From Bryobacteraceae bacterium (GTDB lineage: Bacteria; Acidobacteriota; Terriglobia; Bryobacterales; Bryobacteraceae), in assembly GCA_030041985.1 (NCBI GenBank), contig JASIAM010000150.1:1-35430 (forward strand): a DNA stretch of 35,430 nucleotides, read 5' to 3'. A program made the translations under genes and the position numbers. How positions within the stretch are numbered: position 1 is the first letter of the stretch; each line of letters starts with the position of its first letter. The notes under the pieces were generated by a model. That model ran no database searches. It saw only the letters and a program-made list of their open reading frames with translations, and was not told the DNA's origin. This document shows positions 2,269 through 29,368 of this stretch, piece by piece.

Positions 2269-3582
2269 TCATACCAGCACCGCCTCGCGTGCATGTTCGA
2301 AGGGGCAGGGCCGGCCATTGAGGTGATCTTCGAACTCTTCGCGGAATTTTTCGACGATGGAGATGGTGGGCAGAGCGGCGGCATCGCCGAGGGGGCAAAA
2401 CGTCCGGCCCAGCATGTTCTTCGCAACATCGCCCAGCAGATCGATGTCTTCGCGCGTTCCACCGCCCTCGTGAAACCGGATCAGAACCTTGCGCAGCCAA
2501 GTGGTGCCTTCGCGGCAGGGGATGCACCAGCCGCAGCTTTCGTGGGCGTAGAAGCGCATGATGCGCAGGGCGGCTTTCACCATGCAGGTGTCCTCATCCA
2601 TGACGACAACGCCGCCCGACCCCAGCATGGATTTGCGCGCGGCCATGGAATCATAATCCATGGTGGCGCCTTCGCATTCGGCTGCCGTCAGCAGCGGGCA
2701 AGACGAGCCACCCGGAATGAACGCTTTCAACTTTTTGCCATTGCGCATGCCGCCGCCGACTTCATTGATCATCTGCATTACGGGGAAACCGAGGCGCAAT
2801 TCGTAGACGCCCGGTTTGTTCACATGGCCGGTGAGGCAGGTGAGCTTGGTGCCTCCGGCTTTGGGCACGCCTAAATCAGCAAAAGCCTGCCCGCCATTCA
2901 AGATGATGGGCGGAACGGCGCAGATGGATTCGACGTTATTGAGGATGGTGGGGCATTGGAAGGCGCCCACCACGGCGGGAAACGGAGGCCGGATGCGCGG
3001 CACACCGCGCTTGCCTTCGAGCGATTCGAGCAGCGCCGATTCCTCACCGCATTCGTAAGCGCCCGCACCGGTGTGCGTGTACAGGTCGAAATCGACGCCG
3101 GTGCCTTGAATGTTTTTGCCAAGCCAGCCTTTCTGGTAGGCTTCCCCGATCGCCTTATCCATGATTTCGATCAGGTAACGGTATTCGCCACGGATGTAGA
3201 TCCAGCCCTTATGCGCATCGACTGCCAATCCGGCGATCAGGCAACCCTCGATCAACTGGTGCGGGTCGTACTCGATCAGGAGGCGGTCCTTGCAGGTGCC
3301 CGGTTCGCTTTCATCGGCATTCACCACGATGTACTTGGGCTTGGGCGAGGTGCGCGGAACGAAGCTCCATTTCATTCCGGTGGGGAAACCCGCCCCGCCG
3401 CGCCCGCGGAGGTTGGAAATCTTGACCTCGTTGACGATGTCCTCGGGCTTCATGCCCACGGCTTTGCGGAATGCCTGGTAGCCATCGGTGGCCAGGTAAG
3501 TATCGAGGGCGGCCGAATTGGGCAAGCCGAACCGGCGCGACAAGATTCTGGTTTCGAGCGGGCTAGGTTCGTTATACAACAT
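2269..3582 (-). CDS. nuoF: NADH-quinone oxidoreductase subunit F
   Basis: This is the NADH-binding, FMN-containing 51-kDa subunit (437 aa, normal length), where NADH is oxidised at the tip of the complex I peripheral arm. The NADH/FMN glycine-rich motifs are visible (LRGRGGAGFPTG near residue 60 and GAGAYECGEESAL near 173). The C-terminal N3 cluster signature is present (SCGWCIPCREGT near 350, plus a fourth Cys in TFCPLGD). The gene starts 2 bp after the nuoE stop, so the two are almost certainly translationally coupled. No residues look damaged. Confidence 0.98.
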   Translation of the reverse strand: MLYNEPSPLETRILSRRFGLPNSAALDTYLATDGYQAFRKAVGMKPEDIVNEVKISNLRGRGGAGFPTGMKWSFVPRTSPKPKYIVVNADESEPGTCKDRLLIEYDPHQLIEGCLIAGLAVDAHKGWIYIRGEYRYLIEIMDKAIGEAYQKGWLGKNIQGTGVDFDLYTHTGAGAYECGEESALLESLEGKRGVPRIRPPFPAVVGAFQCPTILNNVESICAVPPIILNGGQAFADLGVPKAGGTKLTCLTGHVNKPGVYELRLGFPVMQMINEVGGGMRNGKKLKAFIPGGSSCPLLTAAECEGATMDYDSMAARKSMLGSGGVVVMDEDTCMVKAALRIMRFYAHESCGWCIPCREGTTWLRKVLIRFHEGGGTREDIDLLGDVAKNMLGRTFCPLGDAAALPTISIVEKFREEFEDHLNGRPCPFEHAREAVLV

Positions 3583-3584
3583 GT

Positions 3585-4067
3585 TTATTGTTTCTTCCCC
3601 AGGCTATCCAAAAGCTGATCGAGTTTTTCCGGAGTTACGAAGTGATGAAAATCGTAGTTGACCTGAATGGCCGGCGCCCACGAGCAAGCGCCGACACATT
3701 CCACCTCTTCGAGAGAAATCTGCCCGTCGGCAGTCACTTCTTTGTGACCGATTCCCAGCTTTTTGGTGGCCTGTTCCCACAGCTTATCCGCATCCCACAA
3801 CAGGCAACTGATATTGGTGCAGATCTGCACGTGGTATTTGCCCATAGGTTTGCGGTGCAGCATCGAGTAATAGGAAACGACTTCGTGGACCTGCAGGGAG
3901 GTGACGCCCACGCGGCGGGCCACTTCCTCGACCAGCTCGTCAGTGATGCTGCCGATTTCATCCTGCGCGTACATCAGCATGGGAATCATGGCTGCGCGCT
4001 CGCGTCCCGCGGGATAACTCTTCAGCAATTTTTCGAAGCGAGTTTCTAATTCAGCAGAAAAAGTCAT
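3585..4067 (-). CDS. nuoE: NADH-quinone oxidoreductase subunit E
   Basis: This is the 24-kDa thioredoxin-fold 2Fe-2S subunit (160 aa) that works next to NuoF in the NADH dehydrogenase module. The N1a ligands are seen as CTNISC in the middle of the protein and CVGAC further on. The N-terminal helical part (YPAGRERAAMIPML, then VARRVGVTSLQVHEVVSYYSM) fits the family. It lies between nuoD (21 bp upstream) and nuoF (2 bp downstream) on the same strand. Confidence 0.97.
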   Translation of the reverse strand: MTFSAELETRFEKLLKSYPAGRERAAMIPMLMYAQDEIGSITDELVEEVARRVGVTSLQVHEVVSYYSMLHRKPMGKYHVQICTNISCLLWDADKLWEQATKKLGIGHKEVTADGQISLEEVECVGACSWAPAIQVNYDFHHFVTPEKLDQLLDSLGKKQ

Positions 4068-4088
4068 GTCAGTATGCCAGCCCCCGCC

Positions 4089-5318
4089 TCATCGGTCCGT
4101 GTCCCCCAAAACGAAATCCATACTGCCGATGGACGCGATCACGTCGGCGATCAAAATGCCCTCGACCAGTTTCGGCGTGGCCTGCAGGTTTCCGAAACTG
4201 GGAGTCCGCATGTGCACGCGGTACGGTTTGGTGGTGCCATCGCTGACTACGTAATATCCCAACTCGCCGCGCGGCGATTCGATCACCTGGTACACTTCGC
4301 CCTCGGGCACGCGGAAACCCTCGGTTACGATTTTGAAGTGATAGATGAGGGCTTCCATCTGAGTTTTCATCTTCTCGCGATCAGGCAGCACAACGTGGGG
4401 CGAATCGGCATGCCAGGGCCCGGAGGGCATGCCTTCCATGGCCTGTTTGATGATGCGGGCGCTCTGGCGCATCTCTTCGATGCGGCACTGGTAGCGGGCA
4501 TACACGTCGTTTTCGGTTCGCGTCACGACTTCGAAATCGAACTTGTCGTAGCTCGTGTAGGGCGCGTACTTGCGGGCATCCAGCGGCAAGCCCGCGGCAC
4601 GGAGCATCGGCCCGGTGATGCCTAAGTCCAGCATGTCTTCAAGCGAGATGAAGCCCACGCCCTTGGTGCGCCCGATCCAGATGGGGTTATTGGTTAATAG
4701 ATTCTCGTACTCGTCGACGCGGCTGGGAAACACATCGATAAATTTCTTGACGCGCTGATACCAGCCGCGCGGCGGTTCGAGCGCCAGTCCGCCGATGCGG
4801 AAATAGCTGGTCATCATGCGCTGGCCGGAGAACATTTCGAAGATCCGGAGAATCTCTTCGCGCTCGCGGAAGCAGTACAGGAAGACGCTCATCGCGCCGA
4901 TATCAATGGCGTGTGTGGCGAGCCAGACCAGGTGACTGTTGAGGCGCGTAAATTCGGTGAGCATCACGCGCATCCATTGCGCCTGGGGCGGAATTTCGAG
5001 GCCCAGCAGTTTTTCGACAGCCAGGCAATAGCCGAGATTATTGGAAAGAGGCGCCAGATAATCGACGCGGTCGGTGAGGGTTACGGCCTGCTGGTAATGT
5101 TTCTGCTCAAATTCTTTTTCGATGCCGGTATGGAGATAGCCGATGTCCGGCTCGCAATGGACGATGATTTCACCATCCAGCTCGATTTTGAGGCGCAGCA
5201 CGCCGTGCGTGGAGGGATGCTGCGGGCCCATGTTGAGGACCATCCGGCGAATGCCGGTTTCGGTTCGTGGCTCCTCAACCACGGCTGCGAATTGACCTGG
5301 AACGCCAGATTCGGACAT
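4089..5318 (-). CDS. nuoD: NADH-quinone oxidoreductase subunit D
   Basis: This is the 49-kDa subunit (409 aa) that forms the quinone-binding pocket together with NuoB. The start is set at ATG 5318 (MSESGVPGQ) because it follows the nuoC stop by 2 bp; the open frame continues upstream to 5522 but that part is nuoC in another frame. Seen: the conserved NMGPQHPSTHGVLR near the N-terminus, LTEFTRLNSHLVW, and a C-terminus ending IASIGSMDFVLGDTDR, which is typical of NuoD. Since the partner NuoB is not encoded nearby, NuoB must come from elsewhere for this subunit to function. Confidence 0.97.
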   Translation of the reverse strand: MSESGVPGQFAAVVEEPRTETGIRRMVLNMGPQHPSTHGVLRLKIELDGEIIVHCEPDIGYLHTGIEKEFEQKHYQQAVTLTDRVDYLAPLSNNLGYCLAVEKLLGLEIPPQAQWMRVMLTEFTRLNSHLVWLATHAIDIGAMSVFLYCFREREEILRIFEMFSGQRMMTSYFRIGGLALEPPRGWYQRVKKFIDVFPSRVDEYENLLTNNPIWIGRTKGVGFISLEDMLDLGITGPMLRAAGLPLDARKYAPYTSYDKFDFEVVTRTENDVYARYQCRIEEMRQSARIIKQAMEGMPSGPWHADSPHVVLPDREKMKTQMEALIYHFKIVTEGFRVPEGEVYQVIESPRGELGYYVVSDGTTKPYRVHMRTPSFGNLQATPKLVEGILIADVIASIGSMDFVLGDTDR

Positions 5319-5320
5319 AT

Positions 5321-5830
5321 TTAAACCCTCGGCCCGGTCACTGGATAATCCTTGCGCAAGGGGTAGCCCTCCCAGTCCTCGGGCATCATGATCCGCTTCA
5401 AATTCGGGTGGTTGCGGAAGCGGATTCCGAACAAATCGAACACTTCGCGCTCGTACCAGTTGGCCGAACGCCAAACCGCGGTTAGCGAATCGATTTCCGG
5501 GTCTTGTCCTTGCAGGCGGCACTTGACGCGCAGCCGCTGGTTGCGTTCGACGGAATGCAGATGGTACACGGCTTCAAAGCGCGGCTCGGCCGGGTAGCGG
5601 TCTACCGCGGTTACGGAACTCAGCCGGATGAATTTCTGCTCGTATTTGAGAAATTCGCAAACGGCCACAATCCGCTCGGGCGCAATTTCGAGGGTGAGTT
5701 CGCCACGGTCGAACTTGCCGCCGGTCACGGCAGCGGAATCAAACCCTTCCACCGCCAGCGCGGCCGCGTTCTCTCGCAAGCTATCTGGCAGCATGGGCAT
5801 CCTGTGGAACGGATCGGGCGGCCGAAGCAT
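5321..5830 (-). CDS. nuoC: NADH-quinone oxidoreductase subunit C
   Basis: This is the 30-kDa subunit of complex I (169 aa). The C-terminal family signature is clear: YEREVFDLFGIRFRNHPNL, then RIMMPEDWEGYPLRKDYP. The ATG at 5830 is preferred over an in-frame ATG at 5800 because a purine-rich GGGGCGGAG lies just upstream of it. With this start the gene overlaps the end of nuoA by 50 bp (20 bp with the later start), which leaves no room for nuoB. Confidence 0.95.
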   Translation of the reverse strand: MLRPPDPFHRMPMLPDSLRENAAALAVEGFDSAAVTGGKFDRGELTLEIAPERIVAVCEFLKYEQKFIRLSSVTAVDRYPAEPRFEAVYHLHSVERNQRLRVKCRLQGQDPEIDSLTAVWRSANWYEREVFDLFGIRFRNHPNLKRIMMPEDWEGYPLRKDYPVTGPRV

Positions 5831-6324: not shown

Positions 6325-6531
6325 ATGACGATGGAGATCGTGCTCAACGGAAAGCCACGCACGGCACGGGAAGGCCAGAGTGTTTTGAATCTTCTGGAAG
6401 AGCTGCAGCTTGACCCCGCGCGGGTGGCCGTGGAACTCGACCGGCGCATTTTGAAGCAGCCGTTATGGGCGGAAACGGTGCTGCGCGCGGGCGCAGAGAT
6501 TGAGATCGTGCAGTTTGTGGGCGGGGGCTAG
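6325..6531 (+). CDS. thiS: Sulfur carrier protein ThiS
   Basis: This is a ubiquitin-like sulfur carrier for the thiazole ring of thiamine. After C-terminal adenylation and thiocarboxylation it delivers sulfur to ThiG. The protein is 68 aa from ATG 6325 (66 aa from ATG 6331, also plausible); the open frame extends further upstream but the added residues do not resemble the family. Seen: MEIVLNGKPRTAREG at the start, the VAVELDRRIL segment, and a C-terminus ending FVGGG, so the required Gly-Gly end is intact. No thiG, thiF or thiO lies nearby. It ends 5 bp before the convergent RND gene. A fragment of a very similar thiS sits at 11575-11675. Confidence 0.88.
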   Translation: MTMEIVLNGKPRTAREGQSVLNLLEELQLDPARVAVELDRRILKQPLWAETVLRAGAEIEIVQFVGGG

Positions 6532-6536
6532 AATGC

Positions 6537-9500
6537 CTACACCTCTTCCTGGGCATGCGCTTCGGCCGGCAGTGGATCACGCGGCCCGGCGGCCCACACG
6601 TAGAGGGTCGGCAGAAGATAGATTCCCAGCAGGAGCGCCGCGACCAATCCTCCAACAATTACTATGGCAAACGGCCTTTGGGAATCTGAGCCAATGCCAC
6701 GGGACAGAGCCGCGGGGAGCAGGCCCAAGCTAGCAACCATCATCGTCATGCTTATTGGCCGAAGTCTTTCGACGGACCCTTCAATGGCTGCATCGCGAAT
6801 ATCATAGCCTCGCGCGCGAAGCTGGTTAATGTATTCCAGCATGATCACTCCGGTCTGCACGGAGACGCCGAACAGCGCGAGAAAACCAACTCCAGACGAT
6901 ACGCTGAAATGCGTTCCCGTAAGCAGGAGAGCCAGTAACCCGCCGATAGGGGCCATGGCTACGTTGGCCAGGATCAACAGAACCCACTTGAGCGATTTAA
7001 ACATCGTGAACAGGATCACGCAGATCGCGAGGAGTGTAATAGGCACAACCACCATCAGGCGTGCCGAGGAGCGCTTTTGGCTTTCGTATTCCCCCGCCCA
7101 ATCGATGCGATAACCCTCGGGAAGCTTGACCTGCTGATTCACTTTTCGCATAGCCTCTTCAACCGTGCTGCCCAGATCGCGTCCGACGACGCTGTATTTG
7201 ATCGCGACGTATCGGGAACCTCCCTCGCGAAAGATCTCCGATGCCCCGTCGAGGACTTTGACATTGCACAGTTGCGCCAGTGACACGCGCTCCCCGGAAG
7301 GACTGAGGATGCGGATGTTTTCTATAGCCTCTTTGGTATCGCGGTAGGGAGCTTGATAGCGTACTACGAGGTCATAGCGCCGCTCGCCCTGGAGGACTTC
7401 GCTAACCGCCTTGCCACCGACGGCCGTTTCCACTGCGTCCTGAACATCGGAGACGTTGATGCCATAGCGCGCGGCTACGTCGCGATCCACGGAGAATTCT
7501 GCATTCGGCTGTCCGATCACGCGAAACAGGCCCAGATCCGAAACGCCGGCGACAGTGCGCAGTACATTGACGATCTTGCTGCCGGTGGCTTCCAGCTTCC
7601 GGAGATCGTCGCCATAGATCTTGATGGCGGATTGCCCTTTAACACCGCTAACGGCCTCCTCCATGTTGTCGGCAATGGGTTGGGAGAAATTCCAGAGGGT
7701 ACCGGGTATCTTTTCGACCTCGTGATCCAGCGCCGCGATGAGTGCTTCTTTGTTCTGATGGAATCCTGGCCGCCATTGCTCCTTGGGCTTGAGGTCAATG
7801 AAGTACTCGGTATTGAAGAAGCCGGCGATATCGGTTCCGTCGTCCGGGCGGCCTACCTGGCTGATTACCTGTGTGACTTCGGGGAAAGAAGCAAAGGCGA
7901 TGCGCGCCCGATTCATCACGCGCGTCCCCTCGGTTGGCCCGGTGCTGGGCGCCAGAGTGCCGCGCGCCCAGATAGCTCCTTCATCCAGATGCGGGAGGAA
8001 TTCGGAACCGATGATCCCGCTCAGCGCCAGATATGCCGAAAGCCCCAATGCTCCCACAGCCACCAGGGCGGTAAGCCACCGGAAGCGAATCGCCTGAATG
8101 AGACTCTTGCGATAGAGAACCGTCATCATTACCATTAACGGGTTGCGCCATTCCCGGACGGCGCGGCGGAAAACAAAGCTGGTGAGCACCGGTGCGATCA
8201 GCATCGAGAAAATCAGCGACCCCAGCAGCGCGAAGCTAACCGTCCAAGCCATCGGTTTGAACAGCCGGCCTTCGACTCGCTGCAACGTGAATATTGGGAG
8301 ATACGCGGTTATGATGATGCCGATGGAGTAAAAGACCGGCCGCTGCACCTCATGCGAGGCTGTGCGGATGCGGTCGAGGGATGTCTCGTTCGCGTGATTC
8401 CGGCCGAGGTAACGTACGATGTTCTCCACAATCACTACGGCGCCTTCCACCACCATGCCGAAATCCAGCGCTCCCAGGGAAAGCAGATTTGCGGGAATGT
8501 GATTCAGGGACAGGCAGATAGAGGCGAATAATAGAGAGAACGGAATGGTAAGCGCCACAATAAAGGCCCCACGCGCGTTACCAAGAAACAAGAAAAGAAT
8601 AACGGCCACCAGAATGATGCCTTCAGCGAGGTTGTGAAGAACCGTGTGGGTGGTGTAGTGAAGCAGGTTGCTGCGGTCGAGAAACGGCACGATCTTCACG
8701 CCAGGCGGTAGCAGGTGATCGTTCAGTTCTTGCACCTTTTCGTGAATGCCCACCAGGGTGGAATCGGAATCAGCGCCCTTTCGGAGCAGGACAATTCCTT
8801 CCACGACATCGGAACTATCCACGATTGTGCCGTTGTCGCGCAGGTATGCTTTACCGATGCGGCCCAAGCGGATTTTCGGCCCTTGGGTTACCGTTGCAAT
8901 ATCGCGGATGCGGATGGGTGTGCCGTTTTGTGTCTTCACGACGATCTTTTCGATATCGTCGACGTCTTTAACCAGTCCGAGAGCGCGAACATTGATTTGC
9001 TGCAATCCGGACTCCAGAAAACTGCCACCAGCATTTACATTGTTGTTGGCAAGTTGCTGTTCGACTTGGCCGATCGTCAGGTTATAGTCGATCAGCTTAT
9101 TCGGTTCCACCTGCACTTGGTACTCACGGGTCATGCCGCCGAAGCTCACCACGTCGACCACGTTGGGAACCGACTTGAACTGCTTTTCTAAAATCCAATC
9201 CTGAAGAGACTTCAACTCCATGAGGTCATACTGAGGGTTGGTGCTTCGCAGGGTGTACCAGTAGATTTGCCCAACAGGACTATAATCCGAACCGATTTGC
9301 GGCTGTAAACCGCCCGGCAGATCCACCTGCGAGAGCCGCTCCAAAACCTTCTGGCGATTCCAATCGTTGGCGGATTCGTCATCAAAAATGAGCATCACGC
9401 TCGAGAGGCCGAAAACGGAAAAAGAGCGCAGATGATCCAGATGCGGAATTCCATTGGTGACGGTTTCAATCGGGACGGTAACCTGCTGCTCTACCTCTTC

Positions 9501-9787: not shown

Positions 9788-9899
9788 GTATTTTATGGCG
9801 TTGCCGGGGCGGATCACTCCGCGCGTTTGATCCTATCGAACCGCACATCGCACTCGTTTTGCCGGTTGATCGTGAATTCAGGGATCAGCCCGCATGCTC

Positions 9900-10277
9900 T
9901 CAAACGCGTATCAATCGGAGCTTCGGATCAAGCCTTTTCAGATCGAGTGGGTCGCTGGTGACCACCGCATACCCTGCGGCCTGGGCACAGATTACAACGT
10001 GCGCATCGGTGATATCCGTAGTGGAGGTTTGCCCTAGCAGCGCGCCAACGGCCTGAGCATGCGATCCATCCAGCGGGATTACCTCGGTCCTCTCAAATTG
10101 AATCATCCTCCAAAGGCGCACCTGCCTGGCGGGGTTGCGAAGGACTTGCGCGAGGGCCGTGGCGGGAATGATGATCCGGCCATTCTCCGACAGGGCGGTG
10201 TTGAGAATCAGAAGGACCCGGCGGCTGTTCCGTTCCATGGCAATCAGGCCGCCGGCGTCGAAAACGATTCCGTTCAC
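9900..10277 (-). CDS. PIN-domain ribonuclease toxin (VapC-like)
   Basis: This is a 125-aa PIN-domain protein, probably an RNase toxin. The acidic residues expected around the metal site are visible: Asp7 (IVFDAGG), Asp88/Asp91 (TTDITDAH) and Asp109/Asp112 (TSDPLD). The position usually held by Glu is Gln44 (LAQVLRNP), as I recall for some PIN subfamilies. It starts with GTG at 10277, overlapping the stop of the upstream antitoxin gene in a GTGA, which is classic toxin-antitoxin coupling. A 93% identical partial copy lies at 11324-11582. Confidence 0.85.
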   Translation of the reverse strand: MNGIVFDAGGLIAMERNSRRVLLILNTALSENGRIIIPATALAQVLRNPARQVRLWRMIQFERTEVIPLDGSHAQAVGALLGQTSTTDITDAHVVICAQAAGYAVVTSDPLDLKRLDPKLRLIRV

Positions 10278-10540
10278 GCGGCCTTTCGCGACTTGGCTCT
10301 ACGCTTGCGCGCCGAGAGCATCCTCCTCGCCCACGCGCGTTCCCTGGGTTTGGGCGGGCCGCCGGTGGCGTTCAGTGCTTCCTCGATCATGGCTCGGAAC
10401 TCAGCCGCATTCTCCAACGATTTTTGGACAGCCTGCTGAATGAAACCGGAGATGGTCGGGGATTCTTGAGCGGCGACGCGCTTGCGGATCTCCTCAAGTT
10501 GTCGGTCCGGCAAAGTGATCGTGATTTTTGTGGTCGCCAT
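10274..10540 (-). CDS. Ribbon-helix-helix (CopG-like) antitoxin
   Basis: This is the small DNA-binding antitoxin partner of the PIN toxin. From ATG 10540 it is 88 aa; the frame opens at 10579 but MATTKITITLPDRQ is the normal beginning of such proteins. The N-terminal beta strand plus two helices (KITITLPDRQLEEI, then SGFIQQAVQKSL) match the MetJ/Arc/CopG fold, and the tail is very basic (RRMLSARKRRAKSRK). It probably represses its own operon through the 100-bp region shared with the divergent BrnT gene. Confidence 0.8.
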   Translation of the reverse strand: MATTKITITLPDRQLEEIRKRVAAQESPTISGFIQQAVQKSLENAAEFRAMIEEALNATGGPPKPRERAWARRMLSARKRRAKSRKAA

Positions 10541-10640
10541 ACCGCTCACCATACCACAATCCGTTGCCCGGCGAGCCACGCACGCAGGCGAATGCCCTGC
10601 GCTCCCGCTGCACTATTGGGAACCCGTAGTACAATGAAAT

Positions 10641-10919
10641 TTGCGGTTCGAATGGCACGAGGCTAAGGCCGCGGCCAACCTGCGAAACCACGGCGTGAGC
10701 TTCGAGTTAGCATCCACCGTTTTTCAGGATCCATTCGCCATCGAGCGAGTGGATGATCGTGAGGATTATGGAGAGGACCGCTTCGTAATCATCGGCATGG
10801 CGGAGGGTAAGGTTGTGCTGTTCGTGGCCTATACGGAGCGCGAGGAACGCATCCGAATCATTTCAGCGCGGAGGGCGCTGCAAATTGAGCAAGACGACTA
10901 CTTCCAGCAAAACGCCTAG
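10641..10919 (+). CDS. brnT: BrnT-family toxin
   Basis: This 92-aa protein matches the BrnT (DUF497) RNase toxin family: FEWHEAKAAANLRNHGVSF at the N-terminus, the VF.DP segment, and the conserved C-terminal IRIISARRA block. The start is a TTG at 10641: the preceding in-frame triplets contain a stop, and the nearby ATG at 10634 is in a frame that ends after ten codons. It is followed after 4 bp by an XRE-type antitoxin instead of the usual ribbon-helix-helix BrnA. A decayed second copy of the last third lies at 13004-13110. Confidence 0.85.
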   Translation: MRFEWHEAKAAANLRNHGVSFELASTVFQDPFAIERVDDREDYGEDRFVIIGMAEGKVVLFVAYTEREERIRIISARRALQIEQDDYFQQNA

Positions 10920-10923
10920 ACCG

Positions 10924-11202
10924 ATGACACCTGAGGCCATCGAGGCGGCTGCGCGGGCTGATCGCGACGCCCGGCCTCTCACGGGATCGGACCTTAAGCG
11001 AATGAAACGCACGCCGCAGGTAAAAGTCATCCGCCGTGCGCTGGAACTCACCCAGGAGGAGTTTGCGGCCCGGTACCACATTCCATTGGGAACCCTGCGC
11101 GATTGGGAGCAGGGTCGCGCGGAACCGGACCAACCTACGCGGGCGTACCTGATGGTGATTGCGAGAGACCCTGATCATGTGAATCGCGTCCTGAATCGGT
11201 GA
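10924..11202 (+). CDS. XRE-family helix-turn-helix antitoxin of BrnT
   Basis: This 92-aa DNA-binding protein has a helix-turn-helix at about residues 40-62 (LELTQEEFAARYHIPLGTLR, then DWEQGR). The Asp-Ala-Arg-Pro-Leu segment near residue 17 and the C-terminal YLMVIARDPDHV are typical of antitoxins paired with BrnT or HigB toxins. ATG 10924 is chosen because it lies 4 bp after the brnT stop; the longer frame upstream is brnT sequence. It is expected to neutralise the toxin and repress the operon. A degraded copy lies at 13111-13222. Confidence 0.82.
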   Translation: MTPEAIEAAARADRDARPLTGSDLKRMKRTPQVKVIRRALELTQEEFAARYHIPLGTLRDWEQGRAEPDQPTRAYLMVIARDPDHVNRVLNR

Positions 11203-11230
11203 TGTGGCAGGAGGGGTCGACTGCTTAGTC

Positions 11231-11318
11231 AATCTCGGTTATCACGTCCACGTATTGCAATCCCGCTTTTTTCCCGGTGTGGCATAGAAGGTCAGCAGAT
11301 GTTGGTTGTCGACGGTCT
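11231..11318 (-). pseudogene. Fragment of a VWFA gene (3' part)
   Basis: About 88 bp resemble the C-terminal coding region of the VWFA gene at 13358-13446, by eye roughly four fifths identical. Read on the minus strand, DNQHLLTFYATPGKK is recognisable against DNQYLLTFYPTPGKK of the intact gene. A one-base loss near the lysine codons breaks the frame. It lies about 30 bp after the intact BrnT-XRE pair, the same order as the decayed pair and intact VWFA gene near 13 kb. Confidence 0.75.
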
Positions 11319-11323
11319 TTTAG

Positions 11324-11582
11324 ACGGGTATCAATCGGGGCTTCGGATCCAGCCTTTTCAGATCGAGCGGGCCGCTGGTGACTACCGCATACCCTGCGAT
11401 CCGGGCGCAGATTACAACGTGCGCATCGGTGATATCTGTAGTGGAGGTTTGCCCTAGCAGCGCGCCAACGGCCTGGGCATGCGATCCATCCAGTGGGATT
11501 ACCTCGGTTTTCTCAAATTGAATCATTCTCCAAAGGCGCACCTGCCTAACGGGGTTGCGAAGGACTTGCGCGAGGGCCGTGG
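11324..11582 (-). pseudogene. 5'-truncated copy of the PIN toxin gene
   Basis: The sequence aligns without gaps to 9904-10162 at a constant offset of 1420, with about 17 differences in 252 bp (near 93%), mostly transitions. It covers residues from Thr40 to the end. The first 39 residues, including catalytic Asp7, are gone and replaced by a thiS fragment. The late Asp109 is Gly, and there are two changes to Pro near the C-terminus. The frame stays open into the neighbouring fragment, but the product would lack an active site. No RHH antitoxin gene is attached. Confidence 0.88.
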
Positions 11583-11675
11583 AACTTGACCGGCGCATTT
11601 TGAAGCAGCCCTTGTGGGCGGAAACAGTGCTCCGCACGGGGGCGGAGATCGAAATCGTGCAGTTCGTGGGCGGGG
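11575..11675 (+). pseudogene. Fragment of a thiS gene (3' half)
   Basis: The sequence corresponds to thiS positions 6426-6526 at a constant offset, about 88% identical. It encodes ELDRRILKQPLWAETVL and on to FVGGD in place of FVGGG, so the essential Gly-Gly end is lost and the stop is replaced. Of eleven codon changes before the final Gly, ten are silent third-position changes. The fragment joins the PIN fragment through GGCCGTGG (11575-11582), which is present in both parents. Confidence 0.85.
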
Positions 11676-11748
11676 ATTGGCCGACGCAGGAAACCAGTGT
11701 CCGAATACGCAAATGGTCACTTATCGCAGCCGGACCGCACCCGCCGAG

Positions 11749-12618
11749 CTATTGCAGCTCTATTGCAACTTGTTTCCCCCGTTTGGTGACCCGCTCACGA
11801 TTCGCCAAGAGCCGTAGCACCAGCAGCATCGGTACCGCAGCCACTAAAAAGAACACAAAACCACCATTGCGGTGGAGCCTGCCTACCCAGAAACCACTGT
11901 CTACGTAAACGCCGAGCCATGAGATAGTCAAAATGCGAACTGCATTTTTGAAGATACCAATCGGGACGGCAAGCAAAACAAAGAAGCCTCTGAGCCAATT
12001 TGAGCGAAGGAAAAGGTAAGCGGCCAGAAGACTGGTGACCAACAGCGAGAGCGTTGAGCGGATGCCGCTGCACTCTTCGGCCACTTCGATGGTGACGCCG
12101 GGCAAGACAAATCGAAATCCGCCTTCCCTGATGGCGGGGATCCGTGCCAACTTGAACAATACAGCGGTAGTATCCGCGGATCCCCTTTGCAAGAACGTAA
12201 CCACGTGATTCAGGACTTCACCCGGGATCGGAATCATCAGGAAAAGAAGACCCAGTGGGAATAGGGCGCCTCGTGCGGCCGACGCACCATAGCAACATAC
12301 AAAGCCTCCTACCCAGGCAACGATGCCGCCGCATATGCCGGCAGAAAGAGAATATTCAGAGTTGAGACGCGATGAAATTCCAACGAAGAGGAGCAGACCC
12401 GCCAGGACTAAGATCAGACCAGTGGCCGGCGCGTACCGCACGTTTGCGAAAATCGTTTTTCGGTTAAGCCATAACAGACCAAGACTAATAAATGGGACCG
12501 CGAGGATCGAAGTGTAACGGGCATCGTCGAGAGCAAGCCTAACCAGTAGTTTCGAAGGCGCACTGAACACACTAAGAACAGCCACAGAAAAACACAGAAA
12601 GAAGACACTCCGGCGCAC
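11749..12618 (-). CDS. Exosortase (EpsH/Xrt family)
   Basis: This is a multispanning membrane transpeptidase-like protease (289 aa) that processes proteins with a C-terminal PEP-CTERM tail. The three catalytic residues are seen in order: Cys183 in AEECSGIRS, Arg228 in IGIFKNAVRI, and His249 in GRLHRNGGF, each next to a membrane segment. About eight hydrophobic helices are visible. The start is a GTG at 12618, since the frame reads back to a stop at 12643 with no ATG. It begins 24 nt after a 68-aa PEP-CTERM gene, so the two are likely one transcript. No polysaccharide genes flank it. Base composition looks lower in GC than its neighbours, hinting at transfer. Confidence 0.92.
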   Translation of the reverse strand: MRRSVFFLCFSVAVLSVFSAPSKLLVRLALDDARYTSILAVPFISLGLLWLNRKTIFANVRYAPATGLILVLAGLLLFVGISSRLNSEYSLSAGICGGIVAWVGGFVCCYGASAARGALFPLGLLFLMIPIPGEVLNHVVTFLQRGSADTTAVLFKLARIPAIREGGFRFVLPGVTIEVAEECSGIRSTLSLLVTSLLAAYLFLRSNWLRGFFVLLAVPIGIFKNAVRILTISWLGVYVDSGFWVGRLHRNGGFVFFLVAAVPMLLVLRLLANRERVTKRGKQVAIELQ

Positions 12619-12642
12619 GCCAATGACACTGCTTAAAGATTG

Positions 12643-12849
12643 TTACTTGCTCTGGTTCGAGTGTTTTTTACGGTACAAGAGGCAAGCCCCGAACACGCCC
12701 ATGACGCCAACAAGGAGTTCCGGAACCGAACTGGGTTCGGGCACCCTGCAAATCGCGGTCGCGCATGGTACTGCCGTCGCTGTGGGCGTTTGTGAGTATG
12801 CAAGAAACGCAAGGCCGAAAGTGAGCAGAACACTGGAAAGCCTGATCAT
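12643..12849 (-). CDS. Small PEP-CTERM protein, candidate dedicated exosortase substrate
   Basis: This is a 68-aa protein with three parts: a signal-peptide-like start (IRLSSVLLTFGLAFLAY), a very short middle with two cysteines (Cys29, Cys34), and a C-terminal sorting signal made of VPEPS (36-40), a hydrophobic span (about 43-59) and a basic end (RKKH). This is the textbook PEP-CTERM layout, yet only some ten residues lie between the probable signal cleavage and the PEP motif. It is directly upstream of the exosortase on the same strand, so it is most likely its cognate substrate. The function of the tiny mature peptide is unknown. Confidence 0.82.
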   Translation of the reverse strand: MIRLSSVLLTFGLAFLAYSQTPTATAVPCATAICRVPEPSSVPELLVGVMGVFGACLLYRKKHSNQSK

Positions 12850-12858
12850 GATGTGCCG

Positions 12859-12887
12859 ATACTACTGTAAGGGAAACAGGATTGCAA
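12859..12887 (-). promoter_or_regulatory. Predicted promoter of the PEP-CTERM/exosortase operon
   Basis: On the minus strand TTGCAA (12887-12882) precedes TAGTAT (12864-12859) by 17 bp. The predicted start lies within a few bases of the ATG at 12849, and no Shine-Dalgarno sequence is seen, so the transcript may be leaderless. The -35 sits inside the palindrome at 12879-12890. Confidence 0.35.
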
Positions 12888-12890
12888 TCC
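12879..12890. promoter_or_regulatory. Perfect 12-bp palindrome, possible operator
   Basis: GGATTGCAATCC is its own reverse complement. It covers the predicted -35 of the exosortase operon, the position expected for a repressor or activator site. No specific regulator is recognised. Confidence 0.35.
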
Positions 12891-13003
12891 CAATGGCGAA
12901 AATTGAATCTACTAGTACTCCTTCTCCGCCGGATTGCCTGGATAGGGTCGGAACCGGTACCGCCCGGCGGCGATACGGCACGAGAGGTGCCGCCGGCAAT
13001 ATT

Positions 13004-13110
13004 GCGCTGTTCGTGGCCTACACGGAGCGCGAGGAACGTGTCCGAATCATTTCGGCGCGGAGGGCACTGCAAAATGAGCAAGACGACTGCTTTCAGCAAA
13101 ACGCCTGGAC
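13004..13110 (+). pseudogene. Relic of a second brnT gene (last third)
   Basis: About 107 bp match brnT positions 10812-10918 at roughly 92% identity, covering residues 58 to 92. The former stop codon is changed (TAG to TGG), so the frame reads through into the antitoxin relic. The 5' two thirds of the gene are absent; the sequence before 13000 is unrelated to the intact copy. Confidence 0.85.
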
Positions 13111-13222
13111 CGATGCGCGGTTGGGAGCAGGGTCGCGCGGAACCGCACCATCCTACGCGGACTTGATGCCGATTGCAGGGGAACCCGAGCCATGCGAATC
13201 GAGTCCTGAATCGGTGATGCGG
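13111..13222 (+). pseudogene. Relic of a second XRE antitoxin gene
   Basis: Right after the brnT relic the sequence jumps from the antitoxin start codon region to the part encoding DWEQGR, an internal deletion of about 170 bp relative to 10928-11096. It then follows the intact gene to its end at lower identity (about 80%, with small gaps). The helix-turn-helix is gone, so no working antitoxin can be made. Confidence 0.8.
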
Positions 13223-13225
13223 CCG

Positions 13226-13297
13226 GTTACAAAGAAGAGACTGCTCGCAACCCTTGGGACCTAGGCAGGTTGGCGAGCAGTCCGCCAGTTTTGTAAC
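13226..13297 (-). terminator. Strong stem-loop terminator of the VWFA gene
   Basis: An inner stem (13239-13252 with 13268-13282, 14 pairs with one bulged base) and an outer stem (13226-13233 with 13290-13297, 8 perfect pairs) lie just after the VWFA stop. On the minus strand the inner stem is followed by a pyrimidine-rich TCTTCTTTG, fitting an intrinsic terminator. Confidence 0.65.
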
Positions 13298-13303
13298 AAC
13301 GGC

Positions 13304-14239
13304 TCATTTAGCAGCAGGCACCCAAACGGCGTCCGGGGTTGACAGGTCTACACCGGCAACTTCGGTTGTCACATCCACGAATTGCAGTCCCGCCTTTTTC
13401 CCGGGTGTGGGGTAGAAGGTGAGCAGGTATTGGTTATCGAGTACCTTCTGGAAATTATCCAAGTAAGGCGCGAAACTTACCGGCTCCGGCCAGCCCATAT
13501 AGAAGGACTCGCCTCCAGTCGCCTCGGCCAGCTTTGCGAGTCCGTTTTGGCCGTTGGTAGCCGCCCAGAAATTACGCCCCCAATGTCCGACACCGGGAAA
13601 ATAGAGGGAGTGTACGAGCGTCCCCGTGCGCTGCGCGACTGAGGCCGCAGTATCGACGTCGGGGTTCAGCAGGGCATTGTGCGCACGGTGAGCACGGTCA
13701 ATCCCGTCGGTCACCAGGAGAACCTCGCGGCGGTTGGGCGTGTCCGGCCAGCGATTCATCAGATCCACTACGGAAAGGTAAGGGCTGCCGAAAGCACCGG
13801 CATAGCCGAGAGGCAGCCGCAGCGCCTTTGCCGCGGCGGCATGGTCTGTGGTGAAGTTCTGGAGGATCTCCACGCTGGCGTTCCTCGCATAGCCGACCGC
13901 GATGGCGGTAGTTGCCGGTTGCGCCTCGATGAATTTGCGCAGATCGGAGAGCTGGTTGCCCAACGTAGACACCGACGAATCGTCAATCAGGATGAAAAGC
14001 TCGAGGCCGGCGCGATCCCCAGTAGCGGGAACCCATTCGGTTACCTGTAGCCGGTCCTTCCCTTTTTTGACGATGACGTCTTCTTGTTTAATCTCAGGGG
14101 CGCGTTTGCCATTTTCGACGTTGGCGGTCACAACCATTTTCACAGGGACATTGGAATCGGTAGTGCCGGCGGTTGCGGCGCCCAGAGTGGCGATGCCAAA
14201 GATCGCCGCGGCGGTGAGAGTTGCGATAGAGCGAAACAT
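13304..14239 (-). CDS. Secreted VWFA-domain protein
   Basis: This is a 311-aa secreted protein from ATG 14239, chosen because MFRSIATLTAAAIFGIATLG is a clear signal peptide and an AAAGGA-type ribosome site precedes it; an upstream in-frame ATG exists at 14284. A von Willebrand factor A domain is seen with the MIDAS motif DSSVS (Asp87, Ser89, Ser91) and VLLVTDGIDR further on. It resembles the VWFA-related proteins common in Acidobacteria, whose role is unknown; adhesion or extracytoplasmic protein binding is likely. A piece of a similar gene lies at 11231-11318. Confidence 0.85.
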   Translation of the reverse strand: MFRSIATLTAAAIFGIATLGAATAGTTDSNVPVKMVVTANVENGKRAPEIKQEDVIVKKGKDRLQVTEWVPATGDRAGLELFILIDDSSVSTLGNQLSDLRKFIEAQPATTAIAVGYARNASVEILQNFTTDHAAAAKALRLPLGYAGAFGSPYLSVVDLMNRWPDTPNRREVLLVTDGIDRAHRAHNALLNPDVDTAASVAQRTGTLVHSLYFPGVGHWGRNFWAATNGQNGLAKLAEATGGESFYMGWPEPVSFAPYLDNFQKVLDNQYLLTFYPTPGKKAGLQFVDVTTEVAGVDLSTPDAVWVPAAK

Positions 14240-14436: not shown

Positions 14437-14724
14437 TCACGGCTTTCGCATCTTCCGGTAGGCTGAGGGCCTTGGGCGAACACGGAACACATGAATGTAG
14501 TGGCGGTGTGAATTAACGGTGTAGAGGATACGATAGCGCTCGTTACCGAAGCGCACCCGATAGGCGTTGGCGTAAGCCTTCAGTTTGACGCTGTCCGGCG
14601 GGATCGGATTATCGAGCAAGGCCTCGATTGTTTCCTTGGCCTCGGTGGCGAGGCCTTCTGGCAAACGGGAAATTTCGCGGTCGGCGCCTTTGCCGATTCC
14701 GTAGGTCCACTCAGAGCCATCCAT
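14437..14724 (-). CDS. RelE/ParE-superfamily toxin
   Basis: This is a 95-aa protein of the RelE-like fold. Family features seen: an N-terminal strand, helices rich in Glu and Leu (LATEAKETIEALL), VKLKAYANAYRVRFGNERYRILY, and a C-terminal RPRPSAYRK. Such proteins are ribosome-dependent mRNA interferases or gyrase poisons; which of these applies is not clear. It starts inside the end of the upstream gene (14-bp overlap), as is usual for toxin-antitoxin pairs with the antitoxin first. Confidence 0.75.
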   Translation of the reverse strand: MDGSEWTYGIGKGADREISRLPEGLATEAKETIEALLDNPIPPDSVKLKAYANAYRVRFGNERYRILYTVNSHRHYIHVFRVRPRPSAYRKMRKP

Positions 14725-15079: not shown

Positions 15080-16147
15080 TCACTGTACACCCGACTCTCG
15101 CGCGTATCGCAGCAAAGCCGCGGCCCGGTAGAGGCCGTGCACGAATTTGCCGTAAGGCAACGTCGCGAAGAGGGCCAGCACGGCCGCCAGATGAATCACC
15201 AGAAGCGCAGGCATTAGCGAAGATTGGCGCAGGACCAACAGGAGCAGGCCCGTGAAGCCGGTGGCGAACAGCAGCGCGAGGAAGGTCACGTCCAAGCTAT
15301 CCTGCCGGCTGGCGGCAATGGCGGGGTCGCGGCGGAACTTCAGCCAATAAAGGCCGGGCGGGCCGATCAGCAGGCCGATGCCGCCGAGCGTTCCCAATAT
15401 GACAGGAAGGCTCTGGTACGGATAAGGCGCGCGGCGCGTCAGGGCGTAGTGATACCACGCGGCTACACAAGTCGAGGAGAAGCACAATAGAAATCCATAA
15501 AAGGTGAAGTGGTGGAACCAGCGGCGGGCCTGCGAATGCCGGGCATCGGGATAGGTGCAGCCCGCGCCGCCGCTGGAGAGGTACTCGAGCGTGAGCATGC
15601 TGCGAGCAGCGCGTGCCAGCGCCGGCAGGTTGGCGTTGGGCAATCCGGCGAGCGGGCTTGACAGAGATGCGCCAAGCGCGACAGCGATCAGTAGCGCAAC
15701 CGCGCCGAATATGGCGACCATTACGCCGTGAGGAATGACCTCGTAAAATGATGCCGTGCTCGAAGGCGCATGCGTCAGCCCTATGAAGCCAGCCACAAGG
15801 GAAACGGCCATTACAGCCAGTGCCAATGAGCCGGTCCTGCGGAAGAGGCATCCCAGGACCCGCGGCCGCGCGTAGCTTCGATAAGAATCGAGGCGAATTT
15901 GCGCCAACACCTGCGGCACATTGACGGCGAATTCGTGCGGCGGAGCGTACTGGCAGGCGTAATAGCACTCGGCGCAATTGTGGCAAAGGTTGGCGAGGTA
16001 GTGGAGATCGGCCGCGTGCACGGGGCGGGCTTCCAGGGCCGGGAAAACGGCGCAGTAGCCTTCGCAATAGCGGCAGGCATTGCAGATCGTGAGGATGCGG
16101 CGGCCCTCGTCGAGCGCGACTTGTTCGGGCGAACTAGCGGGCGGCAC
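15080..16147 (-). CDS. tcuB: TcuB/CitB-type iron-sulfur membrane protein
   Basis: This is the membrane partner that reoxidises the flavin of TcuA during tricarballylate-type substrate oxidation, passing electrons to the respiratory chain. From GTG 16147 it is 355 aa; that start has a strong GGGAGGGAAG ribosome site and overlaps the tcuA stop by 14 bp. The frame is open further upstream to 16303 but only as antisense-free overlap with tcuA. Seen: two 4Fe-4S motifs (CNACRYCEGYC and CHNCAECYYAC), then about six membrane helices, with HHFTFYGFLLCF typical of the family. Confidence 0.88.
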   Translation of the reverse strand: MPPASSPEQVALDEGRRILTICNACRYCEGYCAVFPALEARPVHAADLHYLANLCHNCAECYYACQYAPPHEFAVNVPQVLAQIRLDSYRSYARPRVLGCLFRRTGSLALAVMAVSLVAGFIGLTHAPSSTASFYEVIPHGVMVAIFGAVALLIAVALGASLSSPLAGLPNANLPALARAARSMLTLEYLSSGGAGCTYPDARHSQARRWFHHFTFYGFLLCFSSTCVAAWYHYALTRRAPYPYQSLPVILGTLGGIGLLIGPPGLYWLKFRRDPAIAASRQDSLDVTFLALLFATGFTGLLLLVLRQSSLMPALLVIHLAAVLALFATLPYGKFVHGLYRAAALLRYARESGVQ

Positions 16148-17528
16148 GCGCGGCTTCCCTCCCGGCGATGCGTCCGAATACGGTTCCAATCGCCATACCG
16201 AATCCCGCCAGATACCCTTTGCCCAGGATGTTGCCCGCCATGATTTCCCCGGCAGCGAAGATGTTTCGCGAGGGGCCTCCGTGCGCCATTTCAACGGCTG
16301 CATTTTCCCCCACCTTCACACCCAGGTATGTAAAGGTAATGCCGGGACGCAAAGGATAACCGAAGAAGGGCGGCGTATCGAGCGGTAGCGCCCAGTGGGA
16401 TTTGGGCGGGATAAGCCCGCTGGTATGGCAATCATCGAGCGCCTGATGATTGAATTTGCCCGCAACCACAGAGCGATTGTATGCGCACACTGTCGCTGTG
16501 AGCCGGCCGGGCGGCAAGCCAAGCGCAGAGGCAAGTTCGGAGATGCGTTCGCCGCGAAACGGCGGGAAGACAGATGGCATGAACTTATCCATCACTTTGG
16601 AATCGATGATGGAGAAGGCAATCTGGCCGGGCTGCTGGGCTACGAGGCGTCCCCAGATGGCGTAGCGCTTAGGCCAAAGGTCCTCGCCTTCATCGTAAAA
16701 GCGCTCCGCCTGTTGGTTGACGGCAATGCCGAGGGGCACGCAGTCGAGCCGGGTGACGATGCCGCCATCGAATTTGGGCGCGCGGCCATCAATAGCGACA
16801 GCGTGGCATTGGGTGGGATCTCCCACCGGCTCGGCGCCAGCCGTGAGCAGGAGTTTCAGAACCGCGCCGCGGTTGTAGGGTGTGCCGCGCACCAGGAAGT
16901 TTTCCGCGGCTGGCCCCCACGCGTCTTTGAGCCATTCCAGGTTAGCCTCGAACCCGCCCGCGGCAGCCACCAGCGCTTTGCCTTTAAAGGTAGCCGGGCG
17001 GCCATTCACCAGGGCGCGGCCGGAATCAAAGACGCTGTTGCGAATATCCAATGACGTGACCTCCGCATCATAAACGATGCGCACGCCGCGCTGTTCCGCC
17101 GCCCGGTAATAGGCGTTCAGCAGCGCTTTGCCTCCCCCTAGAAAAAAGGCGTTGGTGCGGCCCAGATGCAATGTCCCACCGAGTGGCGGCTGAAAGCGGA
17201 CGCCGTGACTCATCATCCACTGGGCGCACTCCTCAGACTCCCGAATTACCGTGCGTGCCAGGCGCTCATCCGTTTGGCCGCCTGTGACTCGTAGCAAGTC
17301 GTCCAGATATTCCTGTTCCGAATAGCTACCGGTGAGAACGCCCGTGGGCCGCGCATGCATGGTGCGCATGTTGCGTGTATGGCGGCTGTTGCCGCCGCGA
17401 AATTCCGGGGGAGCGCATTCGAGCACGGTTACCGGCGCGCCCGCCTCGGCGGCGCTCAGGGCGGCGCACAGGCCGGCATTACCACCGCCAATAACGACGA
17501 TATCGGATTGGAGGAGGGGATCGGCCAT
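16134..17528 (-). CDS. tcuA: FAD-dependent tricarballylate dehydrogenase-like flavoprotein
   Basis: This is a 464-aa flavoprotein of the fumarate reductase/succinate dehydrogenase class. The dinucleotide fold is seen at the N-terminus (IVVIGGGNAGLCAALSAAEAG), followed by RGGNSRHTRN, and the C-terminal FAD contact FAAGEIMAGNILGKGYLAG. In Salmonella TcuA oxidises tricarballylate to cis-aconitate; here the substrate is inferred from the pairing with TcuB only. It is divergent from a secreted class II aldolase with 74 bp between. Confidence 0.87.
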   Translation of the reverse strand: MADPLLQSDIVVIGGGNAGLCAALSAAEAGAPVTVLECAPPEFRGGNSRHTRNMRTMHARPTGVLTGSYSEQEYLDDLLRVTGGQTDERLARTVIRESEECAQWMMSHGVRFQPPLGGTLHLGRTNAFFLGGGKALLNAYYRAAEQRGVRIVYDAEVTSLDIRNSVFDSGRALVNGRPATFKGKALVAAAGGFEANLEWLKDAWGPAAENFLVRGTPYNRGAVLKLLLTAGAEPVGDPTQCHAVAIDGRAPKFDGGIVTRLDCVPLGIAVNQQAERFYDEGEDLWPKRYAIWGRLVAQQPGQIAFSIIDSKVMDKFMPSVFPPFRGERISELASALGLPPGRLTATVCAYNRSVVAGKFNHQALDDCHTSGLIPPKSHWALPLDTPPFFGYPLRPGITFTYLGVKVGENAAVEMAHGGPSRNIFAAGEIMAGNILGKGYLAGFGMAIGTVFGRIAGREAARAAR

Positions 17529-21937: not shown

Positions 21938-23059
21938 TCAAATGGCCACCTTGGCCAGCGCCTCCAGTGTCGCTGCGGCAGTAGCCCTCCAGGAAAAATG
22001 AGAAGCGCGGCCTGGACCGGCGGCAGCCAGGCGCTCCCGCAGTTCTGTGTCATCGGTAATGCGGACCATCGCTCCAGCCAGCGCACGGGCATCATGCGGA
22101 TCAAATAGCAGGGCGGCATCTCCCGCAATCGTTGCAATCGGCTCGATCGAAGAGCAGGCCAGCGGCACTCCCGCGGCGAGCGCTTCCAAAACCGGCAGGC
22201 CGAAGCCCTCAAACAGCGATGGATACACGAACGCCCACGCGCGCGCGTAAAGATCGAGCAGATTTTCCCGCGGAATCCAGCCGGGAAATTCAACCGTATC
22301 TCCCAGTGCCAGCGACTCGCGCAATTCGTGCAGAGGGCCGGAAACAAATCCGTGAAAGCCGCAAACCACCAGCCGAAACTCCGGATGTGTTGCCCGAAAC
22401 TCCGCGAATGCGCGCAGCAGAGACGCCAGGTTTTTGTGCGGGTGCAAGGTGGAAACGGTCAGAAGAAAGGGATCGGGGCGGCGTCGCGCGGCGATCGGGA
22501 AAAACCCGGGGTCAACGCCCAGATGCACCACGCGCAGCTTTGACTTGTGGGGCGATTCCGGAAGCCGGTAGAATCTGCGCAGATCGGCGGCAGTGGCTTC
22601 CGAATCCGCCAGAAGCCCTTGGGAAACGCGCGCCGACCAATACAGGAAGAAATTCCAAAACGGCAAATCGAACCAGCGGAAGTATTCGGGGTGCCGCTTA
22701 TGTTGTAAATCGTGAAATACGGTCACCTGCGGGCACGGTGAAACGAGCGGCGCGGTAAATCCGGGGTTCAGCATCACGTCCAGATGAAGGCGCGCCGCTG
22801 CGAGGGGCAGAAGCGTCTGCTCCCAAAGCAAACGGGCCGGGCGGAATGCGGCTCGGACCGGTTGCGGCATCCAGGTGAAGTTGGCGTGCTTGGGTACGAG
22901 ATCCGGACCGGTTTCGCGGTTGGTGAAGACGAAATATTGGTTTGGAGAGGCAGAGGCGGCCTCGATGTCCGCGAGCGCCACGAGCAAGTTGCGCAGGTAG
23001 ATCTCGGTTCCGCCAACGCGTCCGGGAAGCAGGTAGAGCGCGTTGACCCCTATCCGCAT
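21938..23059 (-). CDS. GT4/GT1-type glycosyltransferase
   Basis: This is a 373-aa GT-B-fold glycosyltransferase. The start ATG 23059 (MRIGVNALYLLPGRVGGTEIYLRNLL) follows the upstream stop by one base. Seen: the glycine-rich acceptor loop near the N-terminus, the central VSTLHPHKNLASLLRAF, and the nucleotide-sugar site PSLFEGFGLPVLEALAAGVP with its E-x7-E pattern. This subgroup often contains mannosyl- and rhamnosyltransferases. It is part of the minus-strand glycosylation operon. Confidence 0.92.
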   Translation of the reverse strand: MRIGVNALYLLPGRVGGTEIYLRNLLVALADIEAASASPNQYFVFTNRETGPDLVPKHANFTWMPQPVRAAFRPARLLWEQTLLPLAAARLHLDVMLNPGFTAPLVSPCPQVTVFHDLQHKRHPEYFRWFDLPFWNFFLYWSARVSQGLLADSEATAADLRRFYRLPESPHKSKLRVVHLGVDPGFFPIAARRRPDPFLLTVSTLHPHKNLASLLRAFAEFRATHPEFRLVVCGFHGFVSGPLHELRESLALGDTVEFPGWIPRENLLDLYARAWAFVYPSLFEGFGLPVLEALAAGVPLACSSIEPIATIAGDAALLFDPHDARALAGAMVRITDDTELRERLAAAGPGRASHFSWRATAAATLEALAKVAI

Positions 23060-23060
23060 T

Positions 23061-25209: not shown

Positions 25210-25224
25210 TCCTATACTCCACCC

Positions 25225-27088: not shown

Positions 27089-29368
<2,280 letters not shown>

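Follow-up and report, generated by a model that had tools for sequence, protein, structure and literature searches.

The epsH exosortase gene is nearly always tied to extracellular polysaccharide genes, according to the accessible text of Haft 2006 (PMC1569441), and the locus described here raises the question of what an exosortase does when its gene is paired instead with that of a single, very small PEP-CTERM-like protein, which we term a mini. The pair lies in a 35,430-nucleotide stretch of DNA from a Bryobacteraceae bacterium, the whole of which is referred to as the window. An earlier note on this DNA had described a two-gene system consisting of an exosortase gene and, immediately ahead of it, its own short substrate. 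Both genes are indeed present on the minus strand and intact, and the 68-codon small gene ends 24 bp before the first possible start of the exosortase gene, a gap consistent with one transcript for both; enzyme and candidate target are thus adjacent, and the arrangement recurs in two further genomes. Within 11500-13100 we found no promoter-like site, against 0.8 expected by chance.

Table 1. Features of the mini-exosortase pair and its flanks, in window positions.
Feature	Positions	Strand	Basis
Left flank: broken copy (92%) of the PIN-toxin region 9897-10162	11317-11582	none	
Unique segment carrying the pair, between broken repeat copies	11676-12994	none	duplicate comparison; ~1.3 kb
Exosortase gene, 289 aa, GTG start	11749-12618	minus	profile matches PF09721, TIGR02602; no named Xrt subfamily
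His249 codon (GRLHR)	11872-11874	minus	invariant in 13/13
Arg228 codon (KNAVRI)	11935-11937	minus	invariant in 13/13
Cys183 codon (EECSG), predicted nucleophile	12070-12072	minus	invariant in 13/13
Intergenic gap, 24 bp, mini stop to first possible exosortase start	12619-12642	minus	
Mini PEP-CTERM-like protein gene, 68 aa, ATG start	12643-12849	minus	ORF; PF07589 18.2 bits (cut-off 20.7); G179 homologue
Remainder of mini hydrophobic span, basic tail YRKKHSNQSK, stop; residues 46-68	12643-12714	minus	
Mini recognition motif PEPSSVPEL (PEP-x4-E-L), residues 37-45	12715-12741	minus	
Mini middle, residues 20-36, QTPTATAVPCATAICRV, with CX4C	12742-12792	minus	read from sequence; rule-of-thumb cleavage
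Mini signal peptide, residues 1-19, predicted cleavage AYS^Q	12793-12849	minus	rule of thumb
Right flank: broken copies (three blocks, 89% each) of the BrnT/HTH toxin-antitoxin region 10806-11211	12995-13226	none	

The larger gene encodes a member of the exosortase family: it matches PF09721 with E 1.8e-42 and 145.9 bits (curated cut-off 25.7) and TIGR02602 with 118.4 bits (cut-off 105.55). It is a full exosortase with all three catalytic residues, as had been claimed for it; Cys183, Arg228 and His249 are unchanged across all 13 aligned exosortase sequences, and a conserved Cys, Arg and His are the catalytic residues proposed for exosortases in the text of Haft 2006 accessible to us (PMC1569441). 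The relatives of this enzyme share at most 49% identity with it. Its predicted model is mostly helical, with a mean pLDDT of 84.9, and neither sequence nor fold comparison brought up a related solved structure.

The small protein begins with MIRLSSVLLTFGLAFLAYS, continues with QTPTATAVPCATAICRV and PEPSSVPEL, and ends in a hydrophobic span and YRKKHSNQSK. A PEP motif, hydrophobic span and basic C-terminus behind a predicted N-terminal signal peptide, recognized by reading the sequence and by rule of thumb, give it the tripartite make-up of the PEP-CTERM substrate it had been taken for, but the tail stays below both curated cut-offs (PF07589, 18.2 bits against 20.7; TIGR02595, 13.3 against 16), and we therefore call it PEP-CTERM-like. 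The two cysteines ascribed to its short middle are there, as CX4C; the middle itself is 17 residues long rather than about ten, provided that signal peptidase cuts after AYS, whereas a later cut would leave 10.

The pair sits within a segmental duplication: 9897-11277 is repeated in blocks at 11317-13404, with 82-93% identity. Between its matching parts the first copy has 643 bp (10163-10805) that hold the rest of the PIN-like gene, an RHH-like gene and the start of BrnT, the PIN and RHH calls scoring slightly under the Pfam cut-offs; at the same place the second copy has 1412 bp (11583-12994), which contain the exosortase pair. The first 93 bp of this insert match a third place, 6418-6526 (88%), and so the unique segment extends from about 11676 to 12994. 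The pair looks like a unit that arrived in a toxin-antitoxin region, on our interpretation of the direction and mechanism of the event, and it was probably acquired horizontally; at E 1e-35, an exosortase of the window type is absent from each of four other genomes of the same genus. The inserted segment has no convincing terminal inverted repeats. A search for carriage by mobile elements gave 16 matching plasmid records, all below 60% identity and none with 80% coverage, and no match among viral contigs. The pair had been called isolated, and this holds for about 4 kb on either side; farther off, at 9-14 kb (21938-26394), there are glycosyltransferase and TPR genes, the nearest glycosyltransferase genes at 9 kb. 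As to the rest of the window, 9897-13404 together with 6418-6526 forms a mosaic of duplicated, broken toxin-antitoxin genes (PIN/RHH-like, BrnT/HTH), and a ParE-like gene is found at 14437-14724. The genes at 2269-5522, 15080-17528, 21938-26394, 27089-29356 and 31291-32499 include those for complex I subunits (51K and 49K type), an FAD oxidoreductase with an adjoining Fe-S-like membrane protein (by eye), glycosyltransferase, TPR, peroxidase and a DUF4118 histidine kinase.

Whether the mini could be an ordinary client of a general enzyme depends on what else the source genome (6.0 Mb, 355 contigs) encodes. TIGR02602 detects four exosortases in it, that of the window and others on contigs C17, C74 and C258. 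The C17 gene adjoins EpsI-like and glycosyltransferase-like genes (by eye); the C74 gene has that of a 288-aa PEP-CTERM protein directly upstream, so that upstream adjacency is not limited to minis; and the C258 protein is an exosortase E/protease (L004:790-2424; TIGR04162, 203.8 bits against a cut-off of 150). PF07589, searched at E up to 10, gave 28 matches, 11 of them over the cut-off. Reading of the frames left 25 that end in PEP plus a hydrophobic stretch (one without a visible basic tail) and three that were dropped as spurious; the 25 include the window mini, hence 24 others. By open-frame length the window protein is the sole mini among them, and none of the remaining source-genome tails scored has PEP-x4-[ED]. 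The genome also encodes a 57-aa VPEID-CTERM-like protein (L002:2379-2552 on C74, downstream of another exosortase) that scores 26.4 bits, short of the cut-off of 33. The circumstance named in the earlier note as fatal to a dedicated pair, many other PEP-CTERM proteins and no other exosortase, does not obtain: there are 24 others, but three other exosortases as well. Since these proteins and enzymes are present, a count of one is not available as an argument, and dedication of the window pair is deduced from linkage and motif.

To see how often such a pairing recurs we inspected 89 exosortase loci: the window, 38 of the best 42 further matches of a family search, all 46 new matches of a class search at E 1e-35, and four of eight matches in named genomes, the other four being three repeats of loci already included and one archaeal fragment. 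The family search had 211 matching genomes, and many of its weaker matches lie outside these 89 loci. A mini with signal peptide, PEP-type motif and tail is directly upstream in three loci, those of the window (68 aa), G191:C59 (66 aa) and G194:C11 (58 aa), at distances from the first possible exosortase start of 24, 30 and 30 bp respectively; the G191 contig starts 245 bp ahead of its mini, leaving that side out of view. No mini immediately precedes the exosortase gene in the other 86. Whether the small gene is conserved along with the exosortase, a point on which the earlier note had made its proposal depend, receives a mixed answer: the pairing recurs in two further genomes, but 86 of the 89 loci lack it. 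One MAG record in the wider material, CALQCC020000059.1, titled Bordetella parapertussis, falls in the probable acidobacterial family of the window, and its title looks wrong.

Polysaccharide markers, sought by tblastn with proteins of the G179 polysaccharide loci and of the C17 locus of the source genome, gave at least one hit in 71 of the 89 loci, that is, in 71 of the 86 without an adjoining mini and in none of the three mini pairs (Fisher p 0.007, for a comparison chosen after the data had been seen); in these counts some stretches end at contig ends, and the G179 locus matches its own queries. Fifteen of the 86, G191:C20 among them, are likewise free of markers. The G194 pair adjoins ApbE and RnfD-like genes. 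The proposal is thus borne out to the extent that the pair stands outside polysaccharide loci, its mini recurs (at three loci of 89) and the recognition tail is a variant one. In the exosortase tree a supported clade (100/99) unites G191:C59 and G194:C11 with G191:C20, and the window sequence stands in an unresolved fork; a single clade for the three pairs, which we considered, is not what the tree gives. Joining the window to the G191/G194 clade, a group named after the tree had been seen, was not rejected by the AU test (p 0.377), and one origin of the pairing or two are both possible.

Minis were also met away from exosortases. When six genomes with this exosortase type were searched for PEP-CTERM proteins, a tandem pair of minis came up in G179 and a single one in G044, making six minis in five genomes (window, G191, G194, two in G179, one in G044). 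One G179 mini (62 aa) is 43% identical to that of the window over 54 positions (E 4e-9 as a single comparison) and has PCATxxC, which in the window protein falls in the middle, and PEPSxxPELL in common with it; the window and G179 exosortases are 44-45% identical. Neither the G179 nor the G044 minis are linked to an exosortase, those of G179 being about 50 kb from its exosortase of this type and next to two PEP-CTERM proteins (303 and 248 aa) in a neighbourhood of polysaccharide-synthesis-like genes (by eye), which means that a mini is not bound to an isolated pair. The G179 homologue, together with a mini of like make-up before a related exosortase in two further genomes, suggests at the level of sequence that the arrangement of the pair is more than chance.

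The part of the minis that varies is the one to which a function had been tentatively attached. In its middle, the window mini shows no conservation with those of G191 and G194; CX4C precedes PEP in only two of the six (window and one G179), three (G191, G194 and the other G179) lack Cys in the stretch from likely signal peptide to PEP, and the G044 mini has one Cys in a doubtful place. By rule of thumb one G179 mini and that of G044 have only about 6-8 residues from signal peptide to PEP. The earlier suggestions that cysteine is a feature of the peptide system and that the peptide is lipid-modified accordingly find no general backing across these six proteins, in which we saw no lipobox by eye, and we rejected a Cys-modified peptide or lipoprotein as a general rule.

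What the six minis do share is a tail motif, PEP-x4-[ED]-L, found also in a 164-aa protein beside the exosortase G191:C20. We scored 55 tails found by PF07589 in the source genome and in the 30 best-ranked loci of the six-genome PEP-CTERM search (from 58 frames, three having been dropped for lack of a PEP 18-50 residues from the end): the acidic residue occurs in one, the window's own, and in none of the other 54. The five genomes with the motif all belong to the 23 of 257 that have this exosortase type (E 1e-35), a link that is not an independent test because four of the five were searched on account of their exosortase. The motif is not confined to minis; two larger proteins have it, one of 224 aa in G274, a genome with this exosortase type, and one of 256 aa in G486, a genome unmatched at E 1e-35, where it is encoded 6 kb from another exosortase. 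Conversely, five genomes with this exosortase type (G196, G198, G015, G168 and G533) encode minis whose tails are different. With leave-one-out profiles the left-out mini ranked first in two of six cases and second in one (35.2 against 35.5 bits), and in the other three at least five other PEP-CTERM proteins ranked above it; profiles separate the minis incompletely, and a mini family tied by profile to the exosortase genomes was set aside as weak. Searches of 237 and 399 genomes gave no further mini match above 37 bits among the matches listed; they scored at most 26 and 15 candidates per genome, respectively, the second up to E 0.002, so that they fall short of proving absence. The motif-filtered frames of the followed-up loci (11, 15 and 15) contained no further mini with PEP-x4-[ED]. 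Such small genes are easily missed: those of G191 and G194 are not among the PF07589 matches listed (to E 6.3).

The profile search also brought up PEP-CTERM proteins with other tails, mostly of 51-74 aa by first possible start. Some are encoded in head-to-tail arrays, of six genes in G106, four in G123 and three in G227 (L227:693-1875; L229:1056-1939; L239:553-1202), with tails often like VPEPxTIxLMGAGxAAIGFAxWRKNRKK. No exosortase was noticed beside these arrays within the stretches examined, and PF09721 matches nothing in G106, a genome 72% complete. In the family of the window, then, PEP-CTERM proteins of very small size are a recurrent feature. Near several exosortases of the window type there is, in addition, a recurrent PEP-CTERM protein, some 230-320 aa long and in many cases with QEF-type residues ahead of a PEP-like motif (L065, L069, L072, L073, L074, L075, L076, L084; L216:4381-5292, 6628-7374); three of these proteins tested had no NCBIfam match over cut-off, and it is possibly the usual client of this exosortase type.

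Our best reading, to which we give an even chance, is that the window encodes a dedicated exosortase-substrate pair making one short surface-bound or secreted peptide, the cleavage, fate and exclusivity being deduced. The two genes would be co-transcribed and the preprotein exported by Sec, with removal of its signal peptide. The C-terminal span would hold the mini in the inner membrane, where the neighbouring exosortase would bind PEPSSVPEL and cut there through Cys183, and the remaining peptide of about 15-20 residues, predicted to be of the QTPTATAVPCATAICR type, would be passed to a lipid or glycan acceptor or else released. The product would then be a short surface-bound or secreted peptide, not a large adhesin.

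The alternative that weighs most, though we think it rather unlikely, is an exosortase with many clients: the mini would be one of some 25 PEP-CTERM targets and the window enzyme a spare copy sharing them. The 24 other PEP-CTERM-type proteins of the source genome invite such a view, as do the PEP-CTERM gene upstream of the C74 exosortase and the existence in the family of exosortase-unlinked minis, some with ordinary tails, not least in genomes with this exosortase type. But C17, C74 and the exosortase E on C258 are at hand for other clients, which favours a dedicated pair; the mini tail is atypical, being under the cut-off and bearing an acidic residue that no other of 54 tails has; and the pair is alone on its segment. 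We consider it improbable that the mini carries no product and instead works together with the exosortase, as an assembly factor or a pseudo-substrate by which the enzyme is occupied or regulated. That would suit the near absence of a stretch between signal peptide and PEP in G044 and one G179 mini, and the fact that the tail is conserved and the stretch before PEP mostly is not, and there is a precedent of sorts in XrtF of Flavobacterium johnsoniae, which in the available part of PMC10936215 shares surface-colonisation phenotypes with an adjacent partner protein. It accords less well with a recognition tail of full tripartite make-up, or with the PCATxxC kept between the window and one G179 mini, for which a mere plug has no need.

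The flanks could also tempt one to see a relic, an acquired exosortase with the remnant of a shrunken PEP-CTERM gene in a decaying toxin-antitoxin region, given the broken PIN and BrnT copies on either side and the lack of this exosortase from the four congeneric genomes (E 1e-35). We find this very improbable: neither reading frame is broken, all three key residues are retained, and the mini is conserved with that of G179 although the exosortases differ at more than half of their positions. A broader extension of the dedicated-pair reading, which we offer as a speculation and hold to be unlikely, is that some exosortases of the window lineage are kept to mature peptides of about 6-20 residues from PEP-x4-[ED]-L minis, as a portable two-gene cassette for surface decoration or secretion and not for the anchoring of large proteins; the tandem arrays of minis with other tails would in that event follow the same practice in another form.

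The strongest reason for interest in the pair is that it would let the exosortase reaction be tested with one tiny substrate. The action of exosortases on their substrates and the location of the products are, as we read the field, poorly known, and how PEP-CTERM proteins cross the outer membrane is described as unclear in the part of PMC12188702 accessible to us; with a cassette of two genes, about 1.1 kb long and coding for a single small substrate, mass spectrometry could conveniently establish where the cut is made, what the acceptor is and what product results. Should minis prove genuine clients, short peptides would be among the products of exosortases, and the reading of PEP-CTERM systems in genomes would change.

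The earlier note knew of no described example exactly like this pair. Our literature search, which covered neither preprints nor most subscription journals, found no published description of such an exosortase-mini pair, but the components of the idea have precedents, in sorting enzymes with a single adjacent target and, close at hand, in the 57-aa VPEID-CTERM-like protein of an NCBIfam-named system. Adjacency of enzyme and single target is documented, in the accessible part of PMC3237569, for rhombosortase/GlyGly-CTERM systems, whose enzyme family is unrelated to the window exosortase. Exosortase E/VPEID-CTERM (TIGR04162/TIGR04161) likewise has a short substrate; exosortase E, however, has a CAAX-type protease part and the motif VPEID, whereas the mini has VPEPS, neither profile is among the matches of the window pair, and in the source genome exosortase E and the VPEID-CTERM-like protein are on different contigs, unlike the adjacent genes of the window. 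XrtC, XrtA, XrtW and the other NCBIfam exosortase subfamilies match the window enzyme as relatives, XrtC best, but it is under every named-subfamily cut-off (154 bits against 300 for XrtC, 127 against 208 for XrtA, 119.3 against 425 for XrtW). The nearest likeness is to the PEP-CTERM/exosortase (EpsH) system, with which the pair shares the PF09721/TIGR02602 match, the Cys/Arg/His residues and a substrate with signal peptide and tripartite tail; it differs in standing apart from polysaccharide genes and in having a tiny substrate whose PEP-x4-E-L tail lies under the family cut-offs.
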